Source: a bacterium
Lineage (GTDB): Bacteria; DUMJ01
NCBI GenBank assembly: GCA_026418035.1
Contig: JAOACC010000037.1
Span: forward strand, 1-43,167
DNA length: 43,167 nt
Direction: 5' to 3'
The notes under the pieces were generated by a model that was not told the origin of the DNA, made no database searches, and saw only the letters and a program-made list of their open reading frames with translations. This document shows, in pieces, positions 1 through 28,496 of this stretch; position 1 is the stretch's first letter, and each line of letters begins with the position of its first letter. Made by a program: the position numbers and the translations under genes.

Positions 1-782
1 TAAATAGAGATGAGATAAATCAACTTATATATCATGGTGTGGGTAAGCCAAGAGCTGCTACCGTAATACCACAGTCTGTATATTACGATCCATCTGTAGA
101 GAAATTATACGCGGAATATGACCCTGTTAAGGCTAATAACATTTTAGATGAGCTTGGACTTAAAAAAAGAGGACCAGATGGGTATAGATTAAGACCAGAT
201 GGTAAGACCTTTTCAGTAACAATAAACGTAGCCCCAGTCTTTGGACCTTGGATAGATGTGTGTGAAATGGTTAAGGGCTATTGGGAAAAACTTGGGATAA
301 AGACTGCAGTAAATACTATGGAGAGAGCTCTGCTTTATTCAAGGGCATATGCTGGAGATTTTGAGATGATGGCTTGGAGCGTTGACAGGTCATCTCAACC
401 TTGGTCTTATCCTTGTTGGTGGGTTCCAATGACTAATGAATGTTTCTATGCTCCTCTTACTGGTGTATGGTACACTACAGGAGGGAAAGGAGGAGAAGAA
501 CCTACAAGTCCAGAATTAAAGAAGATAATAGAATTGTATGATAAAATGAAAGTTACTACAGATGCAACAGTAAGAGCTCGTCTTGCCAAAGAAATCTTAC
601 GACTCCATGCTAAGAACGTCTTTGTAATTGGGACTGTAGGGCTTGTTCCTAGCACTATGTGCGTTGGAGTAGTAAAGAACTATTTCAAGAACGTTCCAGA
701 TGAAACCCACGGTGCAGTATCTGATGTAATATTTATGTCTCCTGGTAACGGATTTCCAGCACAGTTCTTTATAAAGAAGTAA
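1..782 (+). CDS. ABC transporter substrate-binding protein, family 5 (Opp type), C-terminal part
   Basis: This is the end of an extracellular solute-binding protein whose 5' part lies outside the window. The frame is open from base 3, reading NRDEINQLIYHG before the GTG used by the ORF track, so that GTG is not a real start. The text aligns with the complete paralogs at 25458 and 28499: the NREEINQ segment, the AEYDP..AN block, RLRPDGKT, the YTTGGKGGEEP block and the closing QFFIKK. Family 5 SBPs deliver peptides or, in Thermotoga and relatives, oligosaccharides to Opp-type importers. The neighbouring mannosidase operon favours a glycan ligand, but this is inference. No permease or ATPase of the Opp type is visible nearby. 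A strong hairpin follows the stop codon. Confidence 0.9.
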   Translation, partial: NRDEINQLIYHGVGKPRAATVIPQSVYYDPSVEKLYAEYDPVKANNILDELGLKKRGPDGYRLRPDGKTFSVTINVAPVFGPWIDVCEMVKGYWEKLGIKTAVNTMERALLYSRAYAGDFEMMAWSVDRSSQPWSYPCWWVPMTNECFYAPLTGVWYTTGGKGGEEPTSPELKKIIELYDKMKVTTDATVRARLAKEILRLHAKNVFVIGTVGLVPSTMCVGVVKNYFKNVPDETHGAVSDVIFMSPGNGFPAQFFIKK

Positions 783-799
783 AGATTTTTAAATTTATG

Positions 800-830
800 G
801 GCTGGCATTCGCCAGCCCGTTTTATTTTAT
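800..830 (+). terminator. Rho-independent terminator after the SBP fragment
   Basis: An 8-bp perfect stem GGGCTGGC/GCCAGCCC (800-807 with 812-819) with the loop ATTC is followed by GTTTTATTTTA. It sits between convergent genes and overlaps the stop codon of the minus-strand gene. On the minus strand the following bases are only moderately T-rich, so it mainly serves the plus strand. Confidence 0.85.
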
Positions 831-1970
831 CATTTTATCTTGAAGGGAGTACCAGAGGTCTAGAACTTTTTCAGGATTTTCATACCATTCTGGAAGATCA
901 GAGCTAGATGGCATAAATATTAATCCACATCTCGTTTTTCTCTCACTAAAAGGTCTTAATATTCTCTCAAAGTAATCTTTTAATGTCTCAACCTCACTTC
1001 TAGGGAAATTCCCAAAGTAGAATTTCTTGTAGTCTAGAATTAGATTCATAGTAGCGTAATAATTATATCTCTCTGGATTTCCAAAGTTTAATCCCTTTAC
1101 TTCTGGCATATCTAGCAGGTCCTTCAAGAATTGATGTCCACTACCGCAAAAATGAACCCAACCTCCACTAAACGGTCTCAGAGCTTCTGCTATGTAAGGG
1201 GAAACAAATTCCTTAAATGTCTTTGGAGAAAGTAGTGTTGTTGTGTCCTCACAACATCTTACTCCGCCATTTTCCATATAGAGAACCCCATGATATCCTG
1301 AATCTAAAGGTTCTCCTATTACTTCTTTGAGCACTTTGGAGACACTTATATAAGCATTGGTTGTGATCTTTAATAGATGATGAATGAAATCAGGGTCATC
1401 ATATATATCTATAAAGATAGTGTCTCCATATACTAGGTGAGCTATATCTAGAGGTCCCTGAGTATCGGATAAATACAAGTGAGCTTTTCCATTTAATTTT
1501 TCTTTAAAAAAGTTTATATATTCTATAGCAGTTGGAACAAGCCCTCTATCTCTAACAAAGTCTTCATCAACCTCTTCTGGGTTTATGGAAAGAATCTGCT
1601 CTTTTGTCAAATGTTCTTTTAACCAGGGCATTATATCATCAAATATTATCTGGTTAAGGCCAAAAACAGAAGCAACAAAACCGGTCCCTAAGTTAGCTCT
1701 CATAGAGAGCTGAGCATCTCCAGGTAGTCTTGCCCTTCCTATTAATTCCCATAGATGCATAACTAGCATCTTTTCTGGATTATAAAACTGTTCCTTGAGA
1801 TTATAAGAAGGGAACCTTTCTTTTTCTGGAATATAAATGGGTGGAGGAATAATTGGTATATAGTCTGGTTCATCTCCTCTCCACACACTAGCCTGCCTCT
1901 TTTTTCCCAGTTCTATCCTTTCTAAATCTGGTTGTAATAGTTCTAATACATACTCAATCTCTGATAGCAT
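822..1970 (-). CDS. Uroporphyrinogen decarboxylase (URO-D) superfamily protein, methyltransferase-like
   Basis: This 382-residue protein belongs to the URO-D/methylcobalamin methyltransferase (MtaA, MtbA, CmuA) TIM-barrel superfamily and is not expected to be the heme enzyme HemE. Features include the LYLSDTQGPLDIA segment and the HFCGSGH motif near residue 270, which matches the His-x-Cys part of the MtaA-type zinc site. The third ligand position, by my alignment with the sibling at 7911, falls in the MPSSS segment and is not cysteine. The protein is longer than the other two URO-D-like proteins here. The ATG start is preceded by GGGGG with normal spacing. It is the last gene of the mannosidase operon, 48 bases after the alpha-mannosidase stop. 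Substrate is unknown; methyl transfer on a glycan-derived compound is one possibility. Confidence 0.85.
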   Translation of the reverse strand: MLSEIEYVLELLQPDLERIELGKKRQASVWRGDEPDYIPIIPPPIYIPEKERFPSYNLKEQFYNPEKMLVMHLWELIGRARLPGDAQLSMRANLGTGFVASVFGLNQIIFDDIMPWLKEHLTKEQILSINPEEVDEDFVRDRGLVPTAIEYINFFKEKLNGKAHLYLSDTQGPLDIAHLVYGDTIFIDIYDDPDFIHHLLKITTNAYISVSKVLKEVIGEPLDSGYHGVLYMENGGVRCCEDTTTLLSPKTFKEFVSPYIAEALRPFSGGWVHFCGSGHQFLKDLLDMPEVKGLNFGNPERYNYYATMNLILDYKKFYFGNFPRSEVETLKDYFERILRPFSERKTRCGLIFMPSSSDLPEWYENPEKVLDLWYSLQDKMIK

Positions 1971-2018
1971 CTGTAATACCCCCTTATGTGGTTTTTAGAA
2001 ATATAAACGGATTCATAA

Positions 2019-4418
2019 TTATTCTTCCAGAAGATTTACTTCTCTTACAGATAGGTTTTTATCTTTCGGAATTGAGAAGCTTTTTATCTCGCAAGGCTTA
2101 AAAGTAGTAAACCAGATTCTATCAAACAACTTGAATTTAGCTTTTGTCTCTTTACCAATAGTCTCATATGCTCTAAGAATGATGTCATCACTGTCTTCTC
2201 CCTCTTTTATTACAGTTACTATTATGTTTTCTTTATCTACAGAGATAAAACTCTGCTCTTGGGGTAGAATCCCTGGGTGTTTATATTCTACAAAAGCTAT
2301 TACAGGATTGTTTAGGCTTTCAGCTAATTTTACAGTATCGCTGTCTCTCCAATCTCCTTTGTGTGGATAGATTATGTATGTAAAATCTTGTTCTCCCTGG
2401 TCTATATATCTATAATCCTCATGTGGATCTAACACTCTCGGGATATGATGTGCATATACAGGACTTCTTAAGACTGTTAAAGATAACACGTTGTTATCAA
2501 CATCATAGCTATATTTGGCATTATTAATGATACTTAAACCATAGTTTCCGTCTCCTACATCTACCCATTCTCCACCAGGCTCTTCTTCTCCATTGGAGGG
2601 TCTAGTTATAAACCCATAAGGAATCTGATATGTGGCGATAGGATTGTTTACATTAACTGGAAACTTAAGCTTTAACATCTTTAATTGCTCATGCCAATCT
2701 ACAGTTACTTTTACTTCTATATACTTTAATGTCCTATAGATTGTAAATTCTTGTATAAGTTTAGATTTATTGTAATGGCTTTCTACTTTTACTGTTCCCT
2801 TAATAGGCCCTGCTTCTAATACTTTGATTTTGGCATCTAAGAATCTTCCTATTTCATTCTTAAAGCTAAAAACGTTATGACTCCAAGTATCACTAGGGTC
2901 ATCTATAACTACAGGTACAGCTGAGTTTCCTAAAAAGACATCCTTTTCATTTTCTTTATCATATAATCTCTTTATATACCCTGTCTTAGTATCTATCTCT
3001 AGGTATAACCAATCATTCTCTAAGATGTTTTCTTTTACATTTAGAGAATAGGGAAGGTGAACATCATATTTTTCGGGAACTATCCTATAGACCTTGTAAC
3101 CATATGGTAAAAGTTTATCAGTAAATATGATCTTTACCCTTCCTCCTGGAGTAGTAGCGGAGGGCTTAGATATCTGTGAAGGAATTAGATTATCTTTTGT
3201 ATCTAGAATGCTTAAATTTTTATCTCCCCAAGGAATGTCGATTTCTATAGGTGTCATTCTCTCAAATGAAGTAGTGTTAAATACTATCAAAGGTTCCCCC
3301 TTGCCTTGGGTATTAATGTCATTAGCTATATTATGTGTAGCATAAACTATTATCTTACTAGCTTTATCCTCTATGCCGCCATGCATAGCCTTTATATCCT
3401 CGTATGCTTCTGGTATACTTGTACCTGCTAAGATATCGTGAAACTGAGTAAATAATAGTGTCTGCCAGATAATCCTTAAATTATCCTTAGGATAGATAAG
3501 ATTTTTTATTTCTCTTCCCATTATTGCGATCTTTTCTCCATTCAAGAGAAGATGTTCTAATTTTCTGTTGTTTTTCTTTATCCAAGAAAGAACTGAATAA
3601 CATCCACTTGCATGATGCTGTAAGTCATCCTTTACTACGGGGAAATCTAATCCTTTGCTAGATATCTCTTCAAAAAATTTATTAGGTGAACTAAAGATAA
3701 GTCTAGGTAAGTCCTCTCTTTTATCTAGTTCTATTATATTTTCTATGTTTTCTTTTGTCGGACCTCCACCATGGTCTCCTACTCCATAAAAACACATAAG
3801 GGTATCTATCTTTTCATTAAGCTTCTCTGCTACTCTTTTTACCTGACTTTCTACCTCTTTGCCCCAAGTAGCATAGGAGAAGGGGACCCTATAGGCTAGT
3901 ATCCTTGAGCCATCAGGACTTTCCCACCAGAATATATCTTCTGGTAAATCCTTTTCATGTGGTCCTGGCCTCATAAAGACATAATAATCTATTCCCATTT
4001 TCTTTAGAATTTGTGGAATCATCCAATTATGTCCAAAAGAGTCTGGGTTATAACCAACCTTTGCTTCTATACCAAACTTCTCTTCGAAATACTTTTGTCC
4101 ATATAATCCTTGTCTTACTAGTGCCTCACCAGAGGGAATATTACAGTCTGGTTCTATCCACCATCCCCCTACTATACACCATCTTCCTTCTTCTACTTTT
4201 TCTTGTATCTTTTTGAATAACTTAGGATCAGTTTCTTCTACCCACTTATATAGACAGGCACTAGATGCAGTAAATATAAACTCTGAATATTCTTCTATTC
4301 TTTCAATAGCAGATTTAAATGTTGCCCTTGTAGTTACTAACCCTTCGTCCCACTTCCACAACCAAACCGGATCAATATGGGCATTACCAATCATATGGAG
4401 AATAAATCTCTTACTCAT
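2019..4418 (-). CDS. Alpha-mannosidase, glycoside hydrolase family 38
   Basis: This 799-residue retaining glycosidase releases terminal alpha-linked mannose. The GH38 hallmarks are present: the zinc-binding HIDPVWLW motif at residues 14-21, and YNPDSFGHN near residue 126, where Asp is the expected nucleophile. The FTQFHDILAGT segment follows further on, as in bacterial GH38 enzymes. The length fits bacterial cytosolic GH38 enzymes of the MngB type, and there is no signal peptide. The start is ATG with GGAGG four bases upstream, and it overlaps the ROK gene stop by four bases (ATGA), indicating translational coupling. Together with the GH2 enzyme upstream it suggests degradation of manno-oligosaccharides imported into the cell. 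An alternative is processing of glycoprotein-derived glycans. Confidence 0.95.
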   Translation of the reverse strand: MSKRFILHMIGNAHIDPVWLWKWDEGLVTTRATFKSAIERIEEYSEFIFTASSACLYKWVEETDPKLFKKIQEKVEEGRWCIVGGWWIEPDCNIPSGEALVRQGLYGQKYFEEKFGIEAKVGYNPDSFGHNWMIPQILKKMGIDYYVFMRPGPHEKDLPEDIFWWESPDGSRILAYRVPFSYATWGKEVESQVKRVAEKLNEKIDTLMCFYGVGDHGGGPTKENIENIIELDKREDLPRLIFSSPNKFFEEISSKGLDFPVVKDDLQHHASGCYSVLSWIKKNNRKLEHLLLNGEKIAIMGREIKNLIYPKDNLRIIWQTLLFTQFHDILAGTSIPEAYEDIKAMHGGIEDKASKIIVYATHNIANDINTQGKGEPLIVFNTTSFERMTPIEIDIPWGDKNLSILDTKDNLIPSQISKPSATTPGGRVKIIFTDKLLPYGYKVYRIVPEKYDVHLPYSLNVKENILENDWLYLEIDTKTGYIKRLYDKENEKDVFLGNSAVPVVIDDPSDTWSHNVFSFKNEIGRFLDAKIKVLEAGPIKGTVKVESHYNKSKLIQEFTIYRTLKYIEVKVTVDWHEQLKMLKLKFPVNVNNPIATYQIPYGFITRPSNGEEEPGGEWVDVGDGNYGLSIINNAKYSYDVDNNVLSLTVLRSPVYAHHIPRVLDPHEDYRYIDQGEQDFTYIIYPHKGDWRDSDTVKLAESLNNPVIAFVEYKHPGILPQEQSFISVDKENIIVTVIKEGEDSDDIILRAYETIGKETKAKFKLFDRIWFTTFKPCEIKSFSIPKDKNLSVREVNLLEE

Positions 4419-5635
4419 GATCCCTCCTTCTTTATCATCTTATAAGGGTTTTTATAAAATTCATAGAGAGCAATTGTCGCTGCTCCAACAACACCTGTAT
4501 CTTTCCCTATATTTGAAGCAAGTATTCTAGTCTGCTCAGGGGAAATTGAGAAACTCCTTTCTCTTACTAATCTCTCTACTCTTGGTATAATGAGGTCTGC
4601 TCCATTAATAATAGCCTCTCTACCTAACACTACAGCCTGAGGACTAAATGTATTTATTACATTTACTAATCCAACACCGAGCCAGAAGCAATAATCATTT
4701 AAAATCTCAATTGCCTCAATATTTCCTTCTCTAGCGGTTCTATAAAAGATAGAGAGTGTTTCTAATGGGTCTTCTTTTATTAAATGGCTCAGTTTCTCTT
4801 TTATTCTTTCTATAAGAGAACCAACAGACGTGTAAAGTTCCAGGCATCCATAATTCCCACAACTGCATTTAGGACCGTTTATATCTACAGTAGTATGCCC
4901 TAATTCTCCTGCCAGTTCTCCAGCACCTCTATATATCTCCCCATTAATTATTATTCCAGCTCCAACGCCTGTGCCTATTGCAAGATAGACAAAATTATCT
5001 ATATCCTTACAAGAACCAAACCACTTTTCTCCTAATGCACATGCTTTAGCATCATTCTCTATAAATGTAGGTAGGTGAAACTCTCTTTCTATTATCTCTT
5101 TTAAGGGGATATTTCTCCAACCAGTGAAATTTGGCGGTGAGATAATAATCCCCTTACTTGGACTTAAAGGGCCAGGAGAACCTATCCCTATGGCAATAAT
5201 TTTTCCCCTTATCTTCGGCTCTATTTCTTCGAGAAGAGATCGCACGACATCTTTAAGTGTATTTAGCGTAATGGGAAAATGTTGATATAAATCAGAATTA
5301 ACTCTCTTTGAGGTTAATAAATTACCCCCAAGATCTACTAGTCCGCAGGATATAGAAGTCCTTGCTAAGTCTATACCTAATACATAATAAGCATCATTAT
5401 TAATACTTAGTAGGGTTCTACTCCTACCTATCTCTCCTTTTACATTTCCTACCTCTCTTACAAGTCCCTTTCTTATAAGTTCATCAACTAGGCTTGTTAT
5501 AGTAGTTGGAGTTAGAGATGTGATCTCTGTCAGCTCTATGCGAGAAATTGGTGAATATGTTCTTATGGTTTGTAGTACTAGACTTCTATTGTAATTTCTT
5601 ACTTCAGGTAGATTTCTCCCTTGTCGTTTTTTCAC
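4415..5635 (-). CDS. ROK family transcriptional regulator (XylR/NagC type)
   Basis: This 406-residue protein has an N-terminal winged helix-turn-helix (about residues 15-65, with SRIELTEITSLTPTTIT) joined to a ROK sugar-kinase-like domain. In the ROK part I see the phosphate-loop-like GIDLARTS (88-95), an IENDAKACALGE segment around residues 192-203 with the kinase-type Asp, the GTGVGAG glycine motif (221-227), GELGH at residues 243-247, and the zinc site CSCGNYGCLE (257-266). Such proteins are typically repressors released by a sugar or sugar phosphate. The start is GTG, with AGG a short distance upstream. It lies inside the operon between the two mannosidases, so autoregulation of this mannoside operon is the simplest role. 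Confidence 0.93.
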   Translation of the reverse strand: MKKRQGRNLPEVRNYNRSLVLQTIRTYSPISRIELTEITSLTPTTITSLVDELIRKGLVREVGNVKGEIGRSRTLLSINNDAYYVLGIDLARTSISCGLVDLGGNLLTSKRVNSDLYQHFPITLNTLKDVVRSLLEEIEPKIRGKIIAIGIGSPGPLSPSKGIIISPPNFTGWRNIPLKEIIEREFHLPTFIENDAKACALGEKWFGSCKDIDNFVYLAIGTGVGAGIIINGEIYRGAGELAGELGHTTVDINGPKCSCGNYGCLELYTSVGSLIERIKEKLSHLIKEDPLETLSIFYRTAREGNIEAIEILNDYCFWLGVGLVNVINTFSPQAVVLGREAIINGADLIIPRVERLVRERSFSISPEQTRILASNIGKDTGVVGAATIALYEFYKNPYKMIKKEGS

Positions 5636-5641
5636 TCTAAC

Positions 5642-7897
5642 CTATCTCGCCTCTTTCATAATTATCCTCAGCCATTCCTTATATCTCTCTAGGCTAAACG
5701 GTGGATATCCCAAAAGATAATGATTTAGATACTTATTTTTATCGAGTTCCCACTCTATAATAAATAATCTCTTTTCCCCTCTACTTACTTTAATCTTACC
5801 TAATATTTTCTTAGATAAAGGTGAGACTAGAAAATCTCCAGAATTTAACTCTTCTTTAGTATCAGCATCGTATATTCTATAAGTTCCTTGCATTTCTATA
5901 AAAGTATCATTTACTCCTACTACTTTCACATACCAGCTTTCTGGTTCTGTAATCATTATACAGAATGGTTCTTGAACCCTTTTTATATAATAATAGGCAA
6001 GTTTTTTATTGAAATAGTAGTCAACTATAGCGTCTGAAATCTGAGGCCAACAATCTATTACATTCCACCATATAATACCCCATATATCATCAGAAAGTCT
6101 AGCTCTCTCTATAAAAAATTTCTTTGCCTCTGCCTGTGTAATTTGACTAGCTAGGATAAAGTCCTCTATATTTTCTGGAATAATTCCAAATAACTCTCTT
6201 ATTTGATTAGCCATCAGTTCATTTCTATTGTAGCTCCTTCTCTTTGATCTCCAGTGCTCCACTGAATGTAGTCTCCAGTAGTCATTATCCCAGTGCCACA
6301 GATAATCTTCAGGTATAAATTTTTTCAAACTTTCTAGATTTGGGCACCCATGGTATCCTATTTCACTTATGAACTTTGCTTTGTTTTCAGTGTAGAATCT
6401 ACTTTTATAATAATCCCTAGGTCCCCATAGATGCTGTTCAGGTGGAGTCAATTTCCCATTTGACTTAACTACCATATCAGAAATATAAGGTGATGAAGGT
6501 AAATATGGTCTATATGGATCTAATCTCTTGCAGACAGAGGGTAAGACCTTTCTAGTTAATATGTTATCAGAAGGGAGAAGATTTTCCAAGTTATAAGCAT
6601 AATCGCACTCATTATCTCCTGACCAGAGTATCAAACTTGGATGATTCCTCAATCTTTTTACTATCTTTATAACCTCTTCTTCTACTGTCTTTTTAAATTC
6701 TTCTATCTGAGGATATCTAGCACAGGCAAAGGTAAAGTCCTGCCAAACTACTATTCCGTGAGAATCACAAAAGTCAAAGAATTCTTCTGACTCATAGACT
6801 CCTCCACCCCAGCATCTTATTATATTACAGCCTAGATCGTTAAAAAGTTCTAAAACAGGAATGACCCTTTCTCTATCTCTTGAATGGAATGCATCTAGTG
6901 GAACCCAGTTAGAACCCCTTAGTCTTACTGGAATGCTATTTATTATGAATTTAAAAGTTCCTTCTTCAGCAGTCTCAGTTCTCTCTAGATGAACAGTCCT
7001 TATACCAATTTTATTTATTTTTTCATCTAAGATTTCTCCATCATAAATAAGCTCACACTTTACTTCGTATAGATTAGGTTCACCGTAACCTTTGGGCCAC
7101 CATAGAAGAGGGTCTTTCAAGTTTATAGCAATATGTCCTGTTATAAACTCTACTGGAAATTCGAATATTTGTTTTTTACCATCTTTGTCAGTAAAGGTAA
7201 ATCTTAAAATAAACTCTTCAAAGTATTGTAGATTGGTCCTAAACTTAAAGAATATATCTAAAGTAGCAAGGTTATCTTCTACTTTTACTGTAGCATAGTA
7301 AAGTTCTTCTATCTCGTTATCTTTAATCTCCCTTAATTCTATATCCTTCCATATCCCAGAGGATACTATTCTTGGAGCTATGTCCCAACCAAATGAATGC
7401 TGAGCCTTTCTAAGCCATAATGCTTCCTCTCTTCCTTCCCAAGAGACAGTTATTGCCTCATAATTTCTATCCTTTGCCCAGAGAATAGGGGAATCTATCT
7501 TTACTATAAGGTTATTTTCCTCTTTTAAAAGACCTGTCACTTCAAATTCATACTCGATAAACATATTATTAGTCTTACCTAAAAGATTTCCATTTAGCCA
7601 TACTCTAGCAATAGTATCAATGCCATAAAAGATAAGTTTGAATTTTTTATCTAGAAACTCTTTGGGTACTTTGAAGTTCTTTTCATACCACCATTCGTAA
7701 AACTCATATTTACGTAGGTTTAAATAATTCTTTCCGAAGAATGGATCTTGTATTAACCTAGCATTTAATAGGTCTAGATATACATCTCCAGGCACAGTAG
7801 CCTTAATATGTTGAAATTTCTCCTTAGCCTCATCAATATCCTTTACCTTCCCTTGAGGACCAAAATATAAATCCCAAGTACCAGAGAGAGAAAACAT
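5642..7897 (-). CDS. Beta-mannosidase-like glycoside hydrolase family 2
   Basis: This 751-residue intracellular glycosidase has the GH2 domain order: an N-terminal jelly-roll (residues 1-190), an immunoglobulin-like domain (about 195-305) and a TIM barrel (about 310-600). Beta-mannosidase-type signatures are RCWGGGVYE (361-369) and VVWQDFTFACARYP (383-396). The acid/base Glu is at about residue 430 (WSGDNE) and the nucleophile Glu at about 512 (ISEIGYHG). The C-terminal region is shorter than in many 800-900 residue beta-mannosidases. There is no signal peptide. The start ATG is preceded by AGGAGG. Exo-glucosaminidase activity cannot be excluded, but the neighbouring GH38 gene favours mannosides. 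Confidence 0.92.
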   Translation of the reverse strand: MFSLSGTWDLYFGPQGKVKDIDEAKEKFQHIKATVPGDVYLDLLNARLIQDPFFGKNYLNLRKYEFYEWWYEKNFKVPKEFLDKKFKLIFYGIDTIARVWLNGNLLGKTNNMFIEYEFEVTGLLKEENNLIVKIDSPILWAKDRNYEAITVSWEGREEALWLRKAQHSFGWDIAPRIVSSGIWKDIELREIKDNEIEELYYATVKVEDNLATLDIFFKFRTNLQYFEEFILRFTFTDKDGKKQIFEFPVEFITGHIAINLKDPLLWWPKGYGEPNLYEVKCELIYDGEILDEKINKIGIRTVHLERTETAEEGTFKFIINSIPVRLRGSNWVPLDAFHSRDRERVIPVLELFNDLGCNIIRCWGGGVYESEEFFDFCDSHGIVVWQDFTFACARYPQIEEFKKTVEEEVIKIVKRLRNHPSLILWSGDNECDYAYNLENLLPSDNILTRKVLPSVCKRLDPYRPYLPSSPYISDMVVKSNGKLTPPEQHLWGPRDYYKSRFYTENKAKFISEIGYHGCPNLESLKKFIPEDYLWHWDNDYWRLHSVEHWRSKRRSYNRNELMANQIRELFGIIPENIEDFILASQITQAEAKKFFIERARLSDDIWGIIWWNVIDCWPQISDAIVDYYFNKKLAYYYIKRVQEPFCIMITEPESWYVKVVGVNDTFIEMQGTYRIYDADTKEELNSGDFLVSPLSKKILGKIKVSRGEKRLFIIEWELDKNKYLNHYLLGYPPFSLERYKEWLRIIMKEAR

Positions 7898-7910
7898 AAT
7901 TTTTTACCTC

Positions 7911-8933
7911 CTATTCTATCTCCTTCAGTGGTCTACTCCACTCTTCGAATACTGCCTCTATGTTCTCTTTTGGATCTTTTAAACCCCATTCACACTGGGC
8001 AATTACACCACCTCTACCTGTATCAAGAGCCTTTCTCACTCTTCTTACCGCTAATCTTACCTCTTCTACCGTTCCAAATGGAAGTATATATTGTCTATCT
8101 ATCTCGCCCCAGAAGGTAATCTTTCCCTTATACCTTCTTCCTAGCTCTTCTATATTCATACAAAAGAGCTGTGAATTTATAGCATCTATTCCTATCTCTA
8201 TCAAGTCTTGATAAATTGCTTCTATATGACCATCTGAATGAAAGAAAACAAACTTGTTATGAGATTTTAATACTTCACAGTAGTCTTTGTATAGAGGTTT
8301 AAAGAATTCCCTCCAAAGTTTAGGAGAAATAAGGAGTGAATTTTGAGTGCCCCAATCATCCATAAAAGATACGCCATCTATATCTGTCTTTGCCCACATC
8401 TCTAATTCTTTGATGTAGAATTCATGTAACATATCACGTAACGCGTATACTTCTTTTACACCATAGGCTAGATCTAAAAATAGATTTTCTGTTCCTCTTA
8501 AAAATTGCATCCTTTCAAAAGGTCTTACCTCAGTTCCGACTTTAACGAATTTATCTGTTTCTGCACAGCTTTTATTAACTTCCGAGAGGTCCGCCTCTTC
8601 TAGTAACTCCCAAGGTGGCTGATAATTTTTGATCGCTGACCAATCTTTTAAAGGTGGTTCTTTTACCTCACCAACAACCCCTGATTCAGCAACTTTCCAG
8701 ACACAACCCCACGCGTCTACGTATTCTCCAACCACATTTGGTTTACCCTTTGCCCTTTTACTAACGCCATATCTATATCTTGGTGTTGTGAAATCAGATG
8801 GGTATTTGCCTAAGACCTCTTCTAATTCCTTTTTCCTGAACATCTCTACCCCTGGAAGATACCATAGTTCTCTTGGAACCCTATCAGGATTCTCAAATCT
8901 TAGAGCTCTTATAACTCTTTCCCTTGAAGTCAT
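7911..8933 (-). CDS. URO-D superfamily protein with altered zinc motif
   Basis: This 340-residue protein begins MTSRERVIRALRFENPDRVP, the usual start of MtaA/CmuA-like URO-D members. Near residue 232 the zinc motif reads HSDGHI, with Asp where MtaA-type proteins have Cys. The distal segment IAQCEWGLKDPKENI keeps the cysteine at the position of the third MtaA ligand. It is the first gene of the mannosidase operon: a promoter lies directly upstream and the beta-mannosidase starts 13 bases after its stop. GAGG is seven bases before the ATG. It may be a corrinoid-dependent methyltransferase or a lyase-like relative; no corrinoid protein gene is in the window. Its function cannot be read from the sequence. 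Confidence 0.88.
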   Translation of the reverse strand: MTSRERVIRALRFENPDRVPRELWYLPGVEMFRKKELEEVLGKYPSDFTTPRYRYGVSKRAKGKPNVVGEYVDAWGCVWKVAESGVVGEVKEPPLKDWSAIKNYQPPWELLEEADLSEVNKSCAETDKFVKVGTEVRPFERMQFLRGTENLFLDLAYGVKEVYALRDMLHEFYIKELEMWAKTDIDGVSFMDDWGTQNSLLISPKLWREFFKPLYKDYCEVLKSHNKFVFFHSDGHIEAIYQDLIEIGIDAINSQLFCMNIEELGRRYKGKITFWGEIDRQYILPFGTVEEVRLAVRRVRKALDTGRGGVIAQCEWGLKDPKENIEAVFEEWSRPLKEIE

Positions 8934-9028: not shown

Positions 9029-9571
9029 TTATTCTAAAAACTTAAAGCTTGCTATTATCTGTCTAAATGTAGCTTCCATATCCTGAAAGCTTTCAGAAAT
9101 TGTATCACAGAGAACTGCTACACCATAATTGTCCTTTACAGTATAAGCCTCCATAGTCTTTACAGGGATACTAATATTTTGACCCTTAAAGGTAAATGAA
9201 TATACCCTTAACATACCGGGAGACCCAGCTAAGTTATATTCTACTATAGAATTCTCAACATAATCAGGAAGATTATCCTTTAACCATTTACCAACTGCTT
9301 CAGCATACTGTTTAGCAGTAAATCCCTCGGGAATCTCCTCCATCATTACAATTAGTTCAGAAGAAGTTTCTTCATCATAAAACCAAGCCAAAGCGCCTTC
9401 TAGTTCTCCTTCTATCCAGCCTTCAGGGTAGGATATACTGAATCCCACTTCTGAGTCGGTATAGGTATTTTTTAATTCTTGACTTGCTGACTCTTGTGCC
9501 ATTACAGAAACTGCAGAAAAGAGAAATGAGAAGATTAACACTAAGCTAACTAAAGTTTTTTTGTAAATCAT
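9029..9571 (-). CDS. Secreted PsbP-like domain protein
   Basis: This is a 180-residue exported protein of unknown role. The ORF track starts five codons earlier, but that ATG overlaps the Shine-Dalgarno sequence GGAGG (9584-9580). The ATG at 9571 lies eight bases after GGAGG and gives a normal signal peptide: MIYKK, a hydrophobic core VSLVLIFSFLFSA, and a likely cleavage after VMA. The mature part carries the YTDSEVGFSISYPEGW pattern typical of PsbP-like (Mog1/PsbP fold) domains. It ends with a FRQIIASFKFLE segment that often closes these domains. The gene is monocistronic, with an extended -10 promoter upstream and a terminator downstream. Confidence 0.8.
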   Translation of the reverse strand: MIYKKTLVSLVLIFSFLFSAVSVMAQESASQELKNTYTDSEVGFSISYPEGWIEGELEGALAWFYDEETSSELIVMMEEIPEGFTAKQYAEAVGKWLKDNLPDYVENSIVEYNLAGSPGMLRVYSFTFKGQNISIPVKTMEAYTVKDNYGVAVLCDTISESFQDMEATFRQIIASFKFLE

Positions 9572-9624
9572 TTCAAAAACCTCCATTCCTTTTTAGCCAT
9601 TAGGCTTAAATTTAATTACAACTC

Positions 9625-27443: not shown

Positions 27444-27468
27444 GGAGAGAGGTTGATGACCTCTCTCC
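27444..27468 (+). terminator. Intercistronic hairpin, probable partial terminator
   Basis: A perfect 10-bp stem GGAGAGAGGT/ACCTCTCTCC with the loop TGATG lies seven bases after the SBP stop. It is followed by TTAAATTC rather than a full T-run, so it likely gives partial termination or 3' protection. The first ATG used by the ORF track for the next gene lies across this hairpin. Confidence 0.65.
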
Positions 27469-27491
27469 TTAAATTCAAGTATGGAGGTATG

Positions 27492-28496
27492 ATGACTAGT
27501 AGAGAAATAGTATTAAAAAGTTTAAATTTTGAAGGACCTGAAAGGATACCTATGACCTTACCATCACCATATCCGAATGATGTAATTGGGGTAGGCTTGG
27601 GACCGAATCCTTATGTGAGTGAAGAATGGGTCTATAAGGGTAATAATAGATGGGAAAGAGTAGACGAATGGGGCAATACTTGGGCTAGACTTGAAGCGTA
27701 TTCAAAGGGGGAAGTTGTGAAGGGAGCTATAGAGGATTGGAATCAGTTAGATACGTATGAATTTCCACCTCTAGACTTGGAGTCAAGATATGAACCTGCA
27801 AGGAAGATTTTTAAAGAGACGCCGGATAAGTTTCATATAGGATTTCTTCCTGGGTTTCCATTTAGTATTGCTAGATATCTGAGAAGAATGGATAACTTTT
27901 TATTAGATGTAGCTGCAGAAAAGGAAAATGTAGCTAGATTACTTAAAAGTATTGCTGACCTACTTGAAATTGTAATAGAAAAGTTTGCCAAAGTTGGGGC
28001 AGATGCTGTTATGTTCGCTGAGGATTGGGGAACTCAAGATAGACTTTTAGTTTCACCTAAATCTTGGAGAGAATTATTTAAGCCTGGTTTTGTTCAACTC
28101 TGTAATACCGCTCATAAACTTGGTCTTTATGTCTTTATGCACTCTTGTGGACATATCTATGAGATAATTCCAGACTTGATAGAGGTTGGTATAGATGTCC
28201 TTCAGTTTGATCAGCCGGCATTACATGGAGTAGATAATCTGGCTAGAGATTTTGGTGGTAAGGTTAATTTCTGGTGTCCGGTAGATATACAACAGATACT
28301 ACCTCAAAAAAATGAAAGACTAATAGAAGAGTTTGCTAAAGAAATGATAGAAAAGTTGGGTTGTTTTAATGGTGGATTTATAGCCGGTTACTATCAGTCT
28401 AACGAGGCTTTAGGCCTTGATCCTTACTGGCAGGATGTTGCCTGTAGGGCTTTTGTCAAATATGGTTATTTGAATAAAACTAAAAAGGAGGTATGA
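27492..28496 (+). CDS. URO-D superfamily protein between two SBP genes
   Basis: This 334-residue member of the URO-D/MtaA superfamily starts MTSREIVLKSLNFEGPERIP, matching the start of the 7911 protein. The ORF track start at 27453 lies in a hairpin; GGAGG at 27483-27487 supports ATG 27492 (or 27489). The zinc-type motif is intact at HSCGHI near residue 220, but the distal segment IAGYYQSNEALG has Tyr where MtaA has its third ligand Cys. ALHGVDNLARDFGGKVNFWCPVDIQ lies between. It is placed between two Opp-type SBP genes and its stop overlaps the ribosome site of the next. A role linked to the imported compound is likely but undefined. Confidence 0.87.
   Translation: MTSREIVLKSLNFEGPERIPMTLPSPYPNDVIGVGLGPNPYVSEEWVYKGNNRWERVDEWGNTWARLEAYSKGEVVKGAIEDWNQLDTYEFPPLDLESRYEPARKIFKETPDKFHIGFLPGFPFSIARYLRRMDNFLLDVAAEKENVARLLKSIADLLEIVIEKFAKVGADAVMFAEDWGTQDRLLVSPKSWRELFKPGFVQLCNTAHKLGLYVFMHSCGHIYEIIPDLIEVGIDVLQFDQPALHGVDNLARDFGGKVNFWCPVDIQQILPQKNERLIEEFAKEMIEKLGCFNGGFIAGYYQSNEALGLDPYWQDVACRAFVKYGYLNKTKKEV

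Follow-up and report, generated by a model that had tools for sequence, protein, structure and literature searches.

Sugars with O-methyl groups occur widely in the glycans of plants, algae and microbes. Proteins of the URO-D superfamily are routinely annotated as haem enzymes, and MtaA-type enzymes bind zinc through a His-x-Cys...Cys motif. In this superfamily the S-methyltransferases have a His-Cys-Cys site, while the O-methyltransferases swap Cys for Asp or Glu (PMC10418091). The aromatic O-demethylases OdmB, VdmB, MtvB and MtoB are corrinoid-dependent and act on methyl ethers (PMC10418091, PMC8630106). For sugars, a cytochrome P450 demethylates 6-O-methyl-galactose in aerobic marine bacteria in an oxygen-dependent reaction, and this aerobic route is the one that was found for sugar demethylation in the literature searched (PMC10033563). 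No paper linking URO-D proteins to glycan loci was found within the open-access literature.

Architecture of the locus

The window analysed here is a stretch of 43,167 nucleotides, which forms one entire contig (C88) of a 2.13 Mb genome in 168 contigs. We take the host to be a heat-loving anaerobe of a Dictyoglomus-like genus. The sequence-only reading had described an operon of five minus-strand genes with a URO-D gene at each end and short gaps or overlaps throughout, and open reading frames and Pfam matches confirm this arrangement. The order is URO-D (protein B), GH2, ROK, GH38, URO-D (protein A), with intergenic spacings of 13 bp (B/GH2), 6 bp (GH2/ROK), -4 bp, an overlap (ROK/GH38), and 48 bp (GH38/A). 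The features are as follows.

7911-8933, minus strand: URO-D superfamily protein B, 340 aa; PF01208 57.5 bits; H232-x-D234 and E315 invariant in the family
5642-7897, minus strand: GH2 glycosidase, beta-mannosidase-like, 751 aa; Pfam GH2 domains; catalytic motifs WSGDNE and SEIGYHG
4415-5635, minus strand: ROK-family transcriptional regulator, 406 aa, GTG start; N-terminal winged HTH; PF00480 232.6 bits, PF01047 24.9 bits
2019-4418, minus strand: GH38 alpha-mannosidase family protein, 799 aa; PF01074 234 bits, with middle and C-terminal domains
822-1970, minus strand: URO-D superfamily protein A, 382 aa; PF01208 39.4 bits; D169 and H273-x-C275-G276 invariant, without a conserved third Cys
797-820, plus strand: terminator-like site with a 10-bp stem, between A and a convergent SBP gene fragment (terminator scan)
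27453-28496, plus strand: third URO-D of the window, outside the operon; sister to the B family; flanked by two SBP_bac_5 genes

Both A (39.4 bits) and B (57.5 bits) score above the PF01208 gathering cut-off of 23.9 bits. The GH38 protein carries the family motifs HIDPVW and NPDSFGH on direct reading of the sequence, and among solved chains it is closest to Ams1 and other alpha-mannosidases. The GH2 protein had been called a beta-mannosidase, a specificity that is probable rather than certain: the beta-mannosidase 5N6U is its second-nearest solved chain (370 bits), but the closest, 9NFE (603 bits), is named only ‘Glycoside hydrolase family 2’. The ROK protein is NagC/Mlc-like and scores under the equivalog cut-offs. 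The terminator scan returned 7 sites against 4.9 expected by chance, so that the site at 797-820 is weakly supported, and promoter-like sites were no more frequent in the promoter scan than in shuffled sequence.

Two neighbours of the operon have counterparts in a sister species. A PsbP-like secreted protein (9029-9586, minus strand) lies upstream of B and is kept upstream of GH42-B there. The SBP fragment (39-782, plus strand) is cut by the contig end and is convergent with A; in the sister species the corresponding position has an intact copy (L091 12853-14823).

Conservation within the genus

The name of the genus follows a submitters' label: L056, a contig deposited as uncultured Dictyoglomus, matches the sister contig CALGNK010000029.1 (L009, G001:C29) at 99.6% identity over 3.8 kb. 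In this sister species (G001) the order is GH42-B, then a gap of ~300 bp, then SBP-permease-permease-GH2-ROK-GH38-A. The gap, upstream of SBP, carries the promoter-like sequence TTGACA-16-TATTAT, and ~3.5 kb with SBP, MalF and MalG lie between B and GH2. B is thus paired with GH42 in the sister species and lies outside the main transcription unit. The GH42, SBP and both permease genes are missing from the window locus, where B would abut GH2 either through deletion or because the sister species gained these genes. An unbroken run of all five genes with URO-D at both ends is confined to this genome; since the sister locus carries transporter genes between B and GH2, the bracketing is particular to this genome.

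A, by comparison, ends the GH2-ROK-GH38 unit in both species, set close behind GH38. In a third species of the genus (G002), A, B and the orthologous GH38 are all absent. Two species thus have all three genes and one has none of them, which suggests, on three genomes, that the module appears or disappears as a whole.

Fold and metal site of A and B

The AF2 models of both proteins are confident, with a mean pLDDT of 95.1 for A and 96.6 for B. The best Foldseek match of both is MtaA of Methanosarcina mazei (4AY7 for A, 4AY7/4AY8 for B), followed by UROD and then MetE, so that the kinship with MtaA proposed from the sequence holds at the level of the fold. B also has weak matches to sugar isomerases and xylanases, and MtaA and UROD are better by orders of magnitude.

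In the family alignment, the residues invariant in the B family include D192, D193, H232, D234, R280, Q281 and E315. H232, D234 and E315 are invariant at 41-91% identity, and E315 aligns with the position of the third zinc ligand of MtaA-type enzymes. Because profiles of the A and B families found no solved relative among PDB chains, the metal site is placed by position only. Judged by alignment, B has the carboxylate in place of Cys that marks the O-demethylases (MT1) of the UroD superfamily, and A does not (PMC10418091). Given this carboxylate triad and the rule for O-methyltransferases from the same source, B looks like an O-type enzyme. By its residues A is an intermediate, keeping H273-x-C275 without conservation of the third Cys. 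A role for A as a His-Cys-Cys thiol enzyme was rejected, as the third Cys is not conserved in the alignment.

The URO-D family in the genome

The genome holds 23 URO-D members in 2.1 Mb, 22 of them PF01208 matches and one more. A and B fall in well-separated parts of the URO-D tree, in different halves of the family. B groups with the third URO-D of the window (27453-28496; tree support 100/99), and A groups with its own family. This third URO-D keeps HSCGH rather than HSDGH.

Neighbours of the paralogues include GH4, GHL6, Gfo/Idh and an FAD oxidoreductase, an HpcH aldolase with a hydroxyacid dehydrogenase, and an amidohydrolase followed by GH78; two GH29 genes lie near one URO-D paralogue cluster. 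Immediate glycoside hydrolase neighbours were found for 4 of the 23 URO-D genes against 5 of ~100 genes from random contigs, annotated partly by eye, which is borderline (p 0.06); the enrichment becomes 5 of 24 (p 0.02) when a remote homologue is counted. Linkage of URO-D genes to SBP_bac_5 (4 cases, 2.9 expected) is at the level of chance and was rejected as meaningful, since the ~50 SBP_bac_5 genes in the genome account for it. These ~50 solute-binding proteins are encoded in 2.1 Mb.

URO-D, an HpcH/HpaI aldolase and a D-2-hydroxyacid dehydrogenase form a trio in two unrelated phyla (L076 1534-4430, G000:C18; L118 718-3653), its recurrence outside this genome being in Omnitrophota. Elsewhere in the genome (L074 641-2298, G000:C153) an MtaA-like URO-D carries a C-terminal thioredoxin-like domain and adjoins a further thioredoxin-like gene and a GTPase that was read by eye as CobW-like.

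The B and A families in other genomes

The B ortholog family comprises 49 loci from many phyla, 40 of them besides the window at an identity of at least 40%. Their contexts are diverse and mostly unrelated to glycans, and other URO-D genes are often nearby. Outside the genus, 3 of 40 B loci have GH38 in the neighbourhood where 0.66 would be expected (Poisson p ~0.03), and none of the 40 has the ROK/GH2 set. Linkage of B to GH38/ROK outside the genus is therefore weakly conserved; a conserved GH38/GH2/ROK/URO-D neighbourhood was looked for across the family loci outside the genus and was not found. At the level of whole genomes, GH38 is present in 37 of 41 B-bearing genomes and in 4 of 14 control genomes, but the B-bearing genomes belong to glycan-degrading lineages.

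Seven other B-bearing genomes have a homologue of A at 34-44% identity, and further genomes have weaker ones. A match at 1e-10 is found in 20 of 41 B-bearing genomes and is mostly weak; most have no close A homologue. The contexts of A homologues include GH130 with an HpcH aldolase and a hydroxyacid dehydrogenase, and GH43 together with a putative sulfatase identified by eye. Among the weaker relatives of A, GH2 is directly adjacent in two genomes.

Corrinoid machinery

No corrinoid protein or activase is encoded in the window. The genome has a methanol corrinoid system on contig C107 (L073 7326-10471), where MtaB is followed by a fused MtaA-MtaC protein and adjoins SUF-like genes. On contig C32 a corrinoid protein that stands alone is encoded together with two URO-D genes, and an FGGY kinase and a LacI-type gene lie beside them. 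Contig C95 (L130 1219-3021) encodes an AcsV/RACo-like activase. A split MetH on contig C145 (L131 502-2217) has homocysteine- and pterin-binding domains and no B12 domain.

Of 40 B-bearing genomes outside the genus, 37 encode a stand-alone PF02607 protein, counted as an open frame of up to 300 aa; among 27 unrelated genomes, 6 do (Fisher p 3e-9, a value that ignores phylogeny, as the two sets are not phylogenetically matched). A shared anaerobic lifestyle may explain part of this association. In a Nitrospiraceae MAG (L017, 3-4864), URO-D, a corrinoid protein, a homocysteine S-methyltransferase, B and another URO-D lie on one strand, likely a complete methyl-transfer cluster. A corrinoid gene also stands beside B in L013. 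In the neighbourhood survey that had been proposed for GH38/GH2/ROK or corrinoid partners, a corrinoid gene is nearby in only 2 of 40 B loci, GH38 in the three given above and the ROK/GH2 set in none.

Proposed function and alternative explanations

Taken together, the MtaA fold, the carboxylate triad and the genome-level corrinoid link make it plausible, and we tentatively favour the reading, that B is a corrinoid-dependent O-demethylase acting here on a methyl-ether glycan, with the corrinoid protein and activase supplied in trans. In this locus the substrate is probably a methyl-ether glycan; methylated mannose would be a guess. A would be a related protein of uncertain role that is co-inherited with the GH2-ROK-GH38 unit.

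The locus would then function as an inducible glycan-utilisation module, with a ROK regulator and the exo-glycosidases GH38 and GH2; in the sister species the module also includes a sugar ABC transporter and GH42. Methyl ethers of the imported oligosaccharide would be handled by B and, less surely, by A. A divalent metal, probably Zn, would be bound by B via His232, Asp234 and Glu315, and this hard metal site would activate the ether oxygen of a methylated glycan component. The Co(I) corrinoid of a protein encoded elsewhere would then take up the methyl group; the C32 protein is the only stand-alone candidate for this partner in the genome, and the RACo/AcsV-like protein at C95 would re-reduce the corrinoid. 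The methyl group could exit to homocysteine or tetrahydrofolate via the split MetH at C145, or alternatively via an HxC-type URO-D protein, A being one candidate.

The chief rival holds that the URO-D proteins are no methyltransferases and are instead metal-dependent TIM-barrel enzymes which act on sugar intermediates, for instance by decarboxylating an oxidised sugar, cleaving it as an aldolase would or catalysing an elimination, and which have been recruited to many glycan operons. This is unlikely, while still deserving serious weight. It fits the neighbours of the paralogues (GH4, GHL6, Gfo/Idh, the FAD oxidoreductase, HpcH/hydroxyacid dehydrogenase and amidohydrolase-GH78), the recurrence of the aldolase trio in Omnitrophota, the lack in B of the Cys ligands of thiol-methylating enzymes, and the weak matches of B to sugar isomerases and xylanases. 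However, MtaA and UROD are the best folds by orders of magnitude, stand-alone corrinoid proteins are strongly associated with B-bearing genomes, and in L017 genes for a corrinoid protein and a homocysteine methyltransferase accompany B. A looser rival makes A and B general one-carbon or methionine-salvage enzymes, working on methyl-sulfur or methyl-folate, that became chance neighbours of mannosidases through family expansion in a sugar-rich genome. It is rather unlikely: A, B and GH38 are gained or lost together in the genus, A closes the GH2-ROK-GH38 unit with tight spacing in both species, relatives of A have GH2 as a direct neighbour in two other genomes and GH130 or GH43 nearby in another two, and the Cys ligands that methyl-sulfur chemistry would call for are missing from B. 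The 23 URO-D genes in 2.1 Mb, the mostly non-glycan contexts of the B family, the chance-level linkage to SBP_bac_5, the borderline enrichment of glycoside hydrolase neighbours on either count, and the position of B outside the main unit of the sister species speak for it.

Two further explanations concern the pair itself. B might take the methyl group off the sugar and A hand it on to a thiol, the two forming an MT1/MT2 donor/acceptor pair dedicated to this operon. The carboxylate triad of B, the H-x-C kept by A and their joint presence or absence in three genomes would suit such a division of labour, but it is quite improbable given that A is without the third Cys, that fewer than half of the B-bearing genomes (20 of 41) match A, mostly weakly, and that the two genes are non-adjacent in either genome. 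That A and B are true uroporphyrinogen decarboxylases for tetrapyrrole synthesis is suggested by the Pfam family name only and can be set aside almost entirely. Identification as HemE was rejected, as neither protein matches the hemE equivalog model up to E 0.1; MtaA and CmuA models do match, and A and B are only 12-18% identical to solved URODs.

Returning to B as an O-demethylase, the proposal of the sequence-only reading that relatives of corrinoid methyltransferases are tied here to glycan use is upheld in part. The MtaA folds, the carboxylate triad, the genome-level corrinoid link and L017 agree with it, but the locus itself has no corrinoid protein. Its narrower suggestion, a role in handling O-methylated mannosides or another one-carbon step linked to mannan degradation, is not established, with GH38 near B in so few loci, the ROK/GH2 set in none and the bracketing absent from the sister species. 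A wider claim can be framed, in which the B family, as H-x-D...E URO-D proteins, is an undescribed class of corrinoid-dependent O-demethylases for methylated sugars and dozens of paralogues share one or two corrinoid proteins; it is unlikely as it stands and is offered as speculation. With its sharply conserved clade, O-type metal site and strong corrinoid tie, B is a concrete, assayable candidate for anaerobic sugar O-demethylation.

Comparison with known systems

A and B resemble the soluble methylcobamide:CoM methyltransferases MtaA/MtbA (4AY7/4AY8; TIGR01463) in their UROD-type TIM barrel and in having H-x-(C/D) at the metal position. They differ in being only ~15-17% identical, and their TIGR01463 scores (26.7 bits for A, 50.5 for B, against a cut-off of 235.4) place both outside that family. 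Unlike the His-x-Cys...Cys site of MtaA/MtbA, B has D and E for both Cys, and A is without the third Cys.

By description, B also resembles the aromatic O-demethylase MT1 proteins (OdmB, VdmB, MtvB, MtoB), which belong to the UroD superfamily and have a carboxylate metal site (PMC10418091, PMC8630106). Unlike the present locus, aromatic O-demethylase operons encode their own corrinoid protein and activase; neither stands alongside B in the window, and L017 has the corrinoid protein only. Type 1 mlp clusters (Kountz and Balskus, PMC10418091) are like this genome in combining several UroD paralogues with a corrinoid protein and an activase in anaerobes. However, Mlp proteins have His-Cys-Cys and cluster with the corrinoid protein, and neither is true of A or B; the defining set of Mlp2 and Mlp3 with a corrinoid protein and Ram/RACE in one cluster is absent from the locus.

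Mannoside and N-glycan operons (GH38, GH2, ROK and an ABC transporter) share with this locus their enzymes and regulator, and with the sister species the SBP and permeases. Such operons differ in that the present unit has URO-D genes inside it, and in that GH42 and the transporter are absent from the window locus. The P450 route is alike in that a sugar methyl ether is removed during polysaccharide use (PMC10033563). Unlike that route, A and B would be an anaerobic, corrinoid-based counterpart, if the O-demethylase reading holds, and the B family would then give anaerobes an oxygen-free route to O-methyl glycans.
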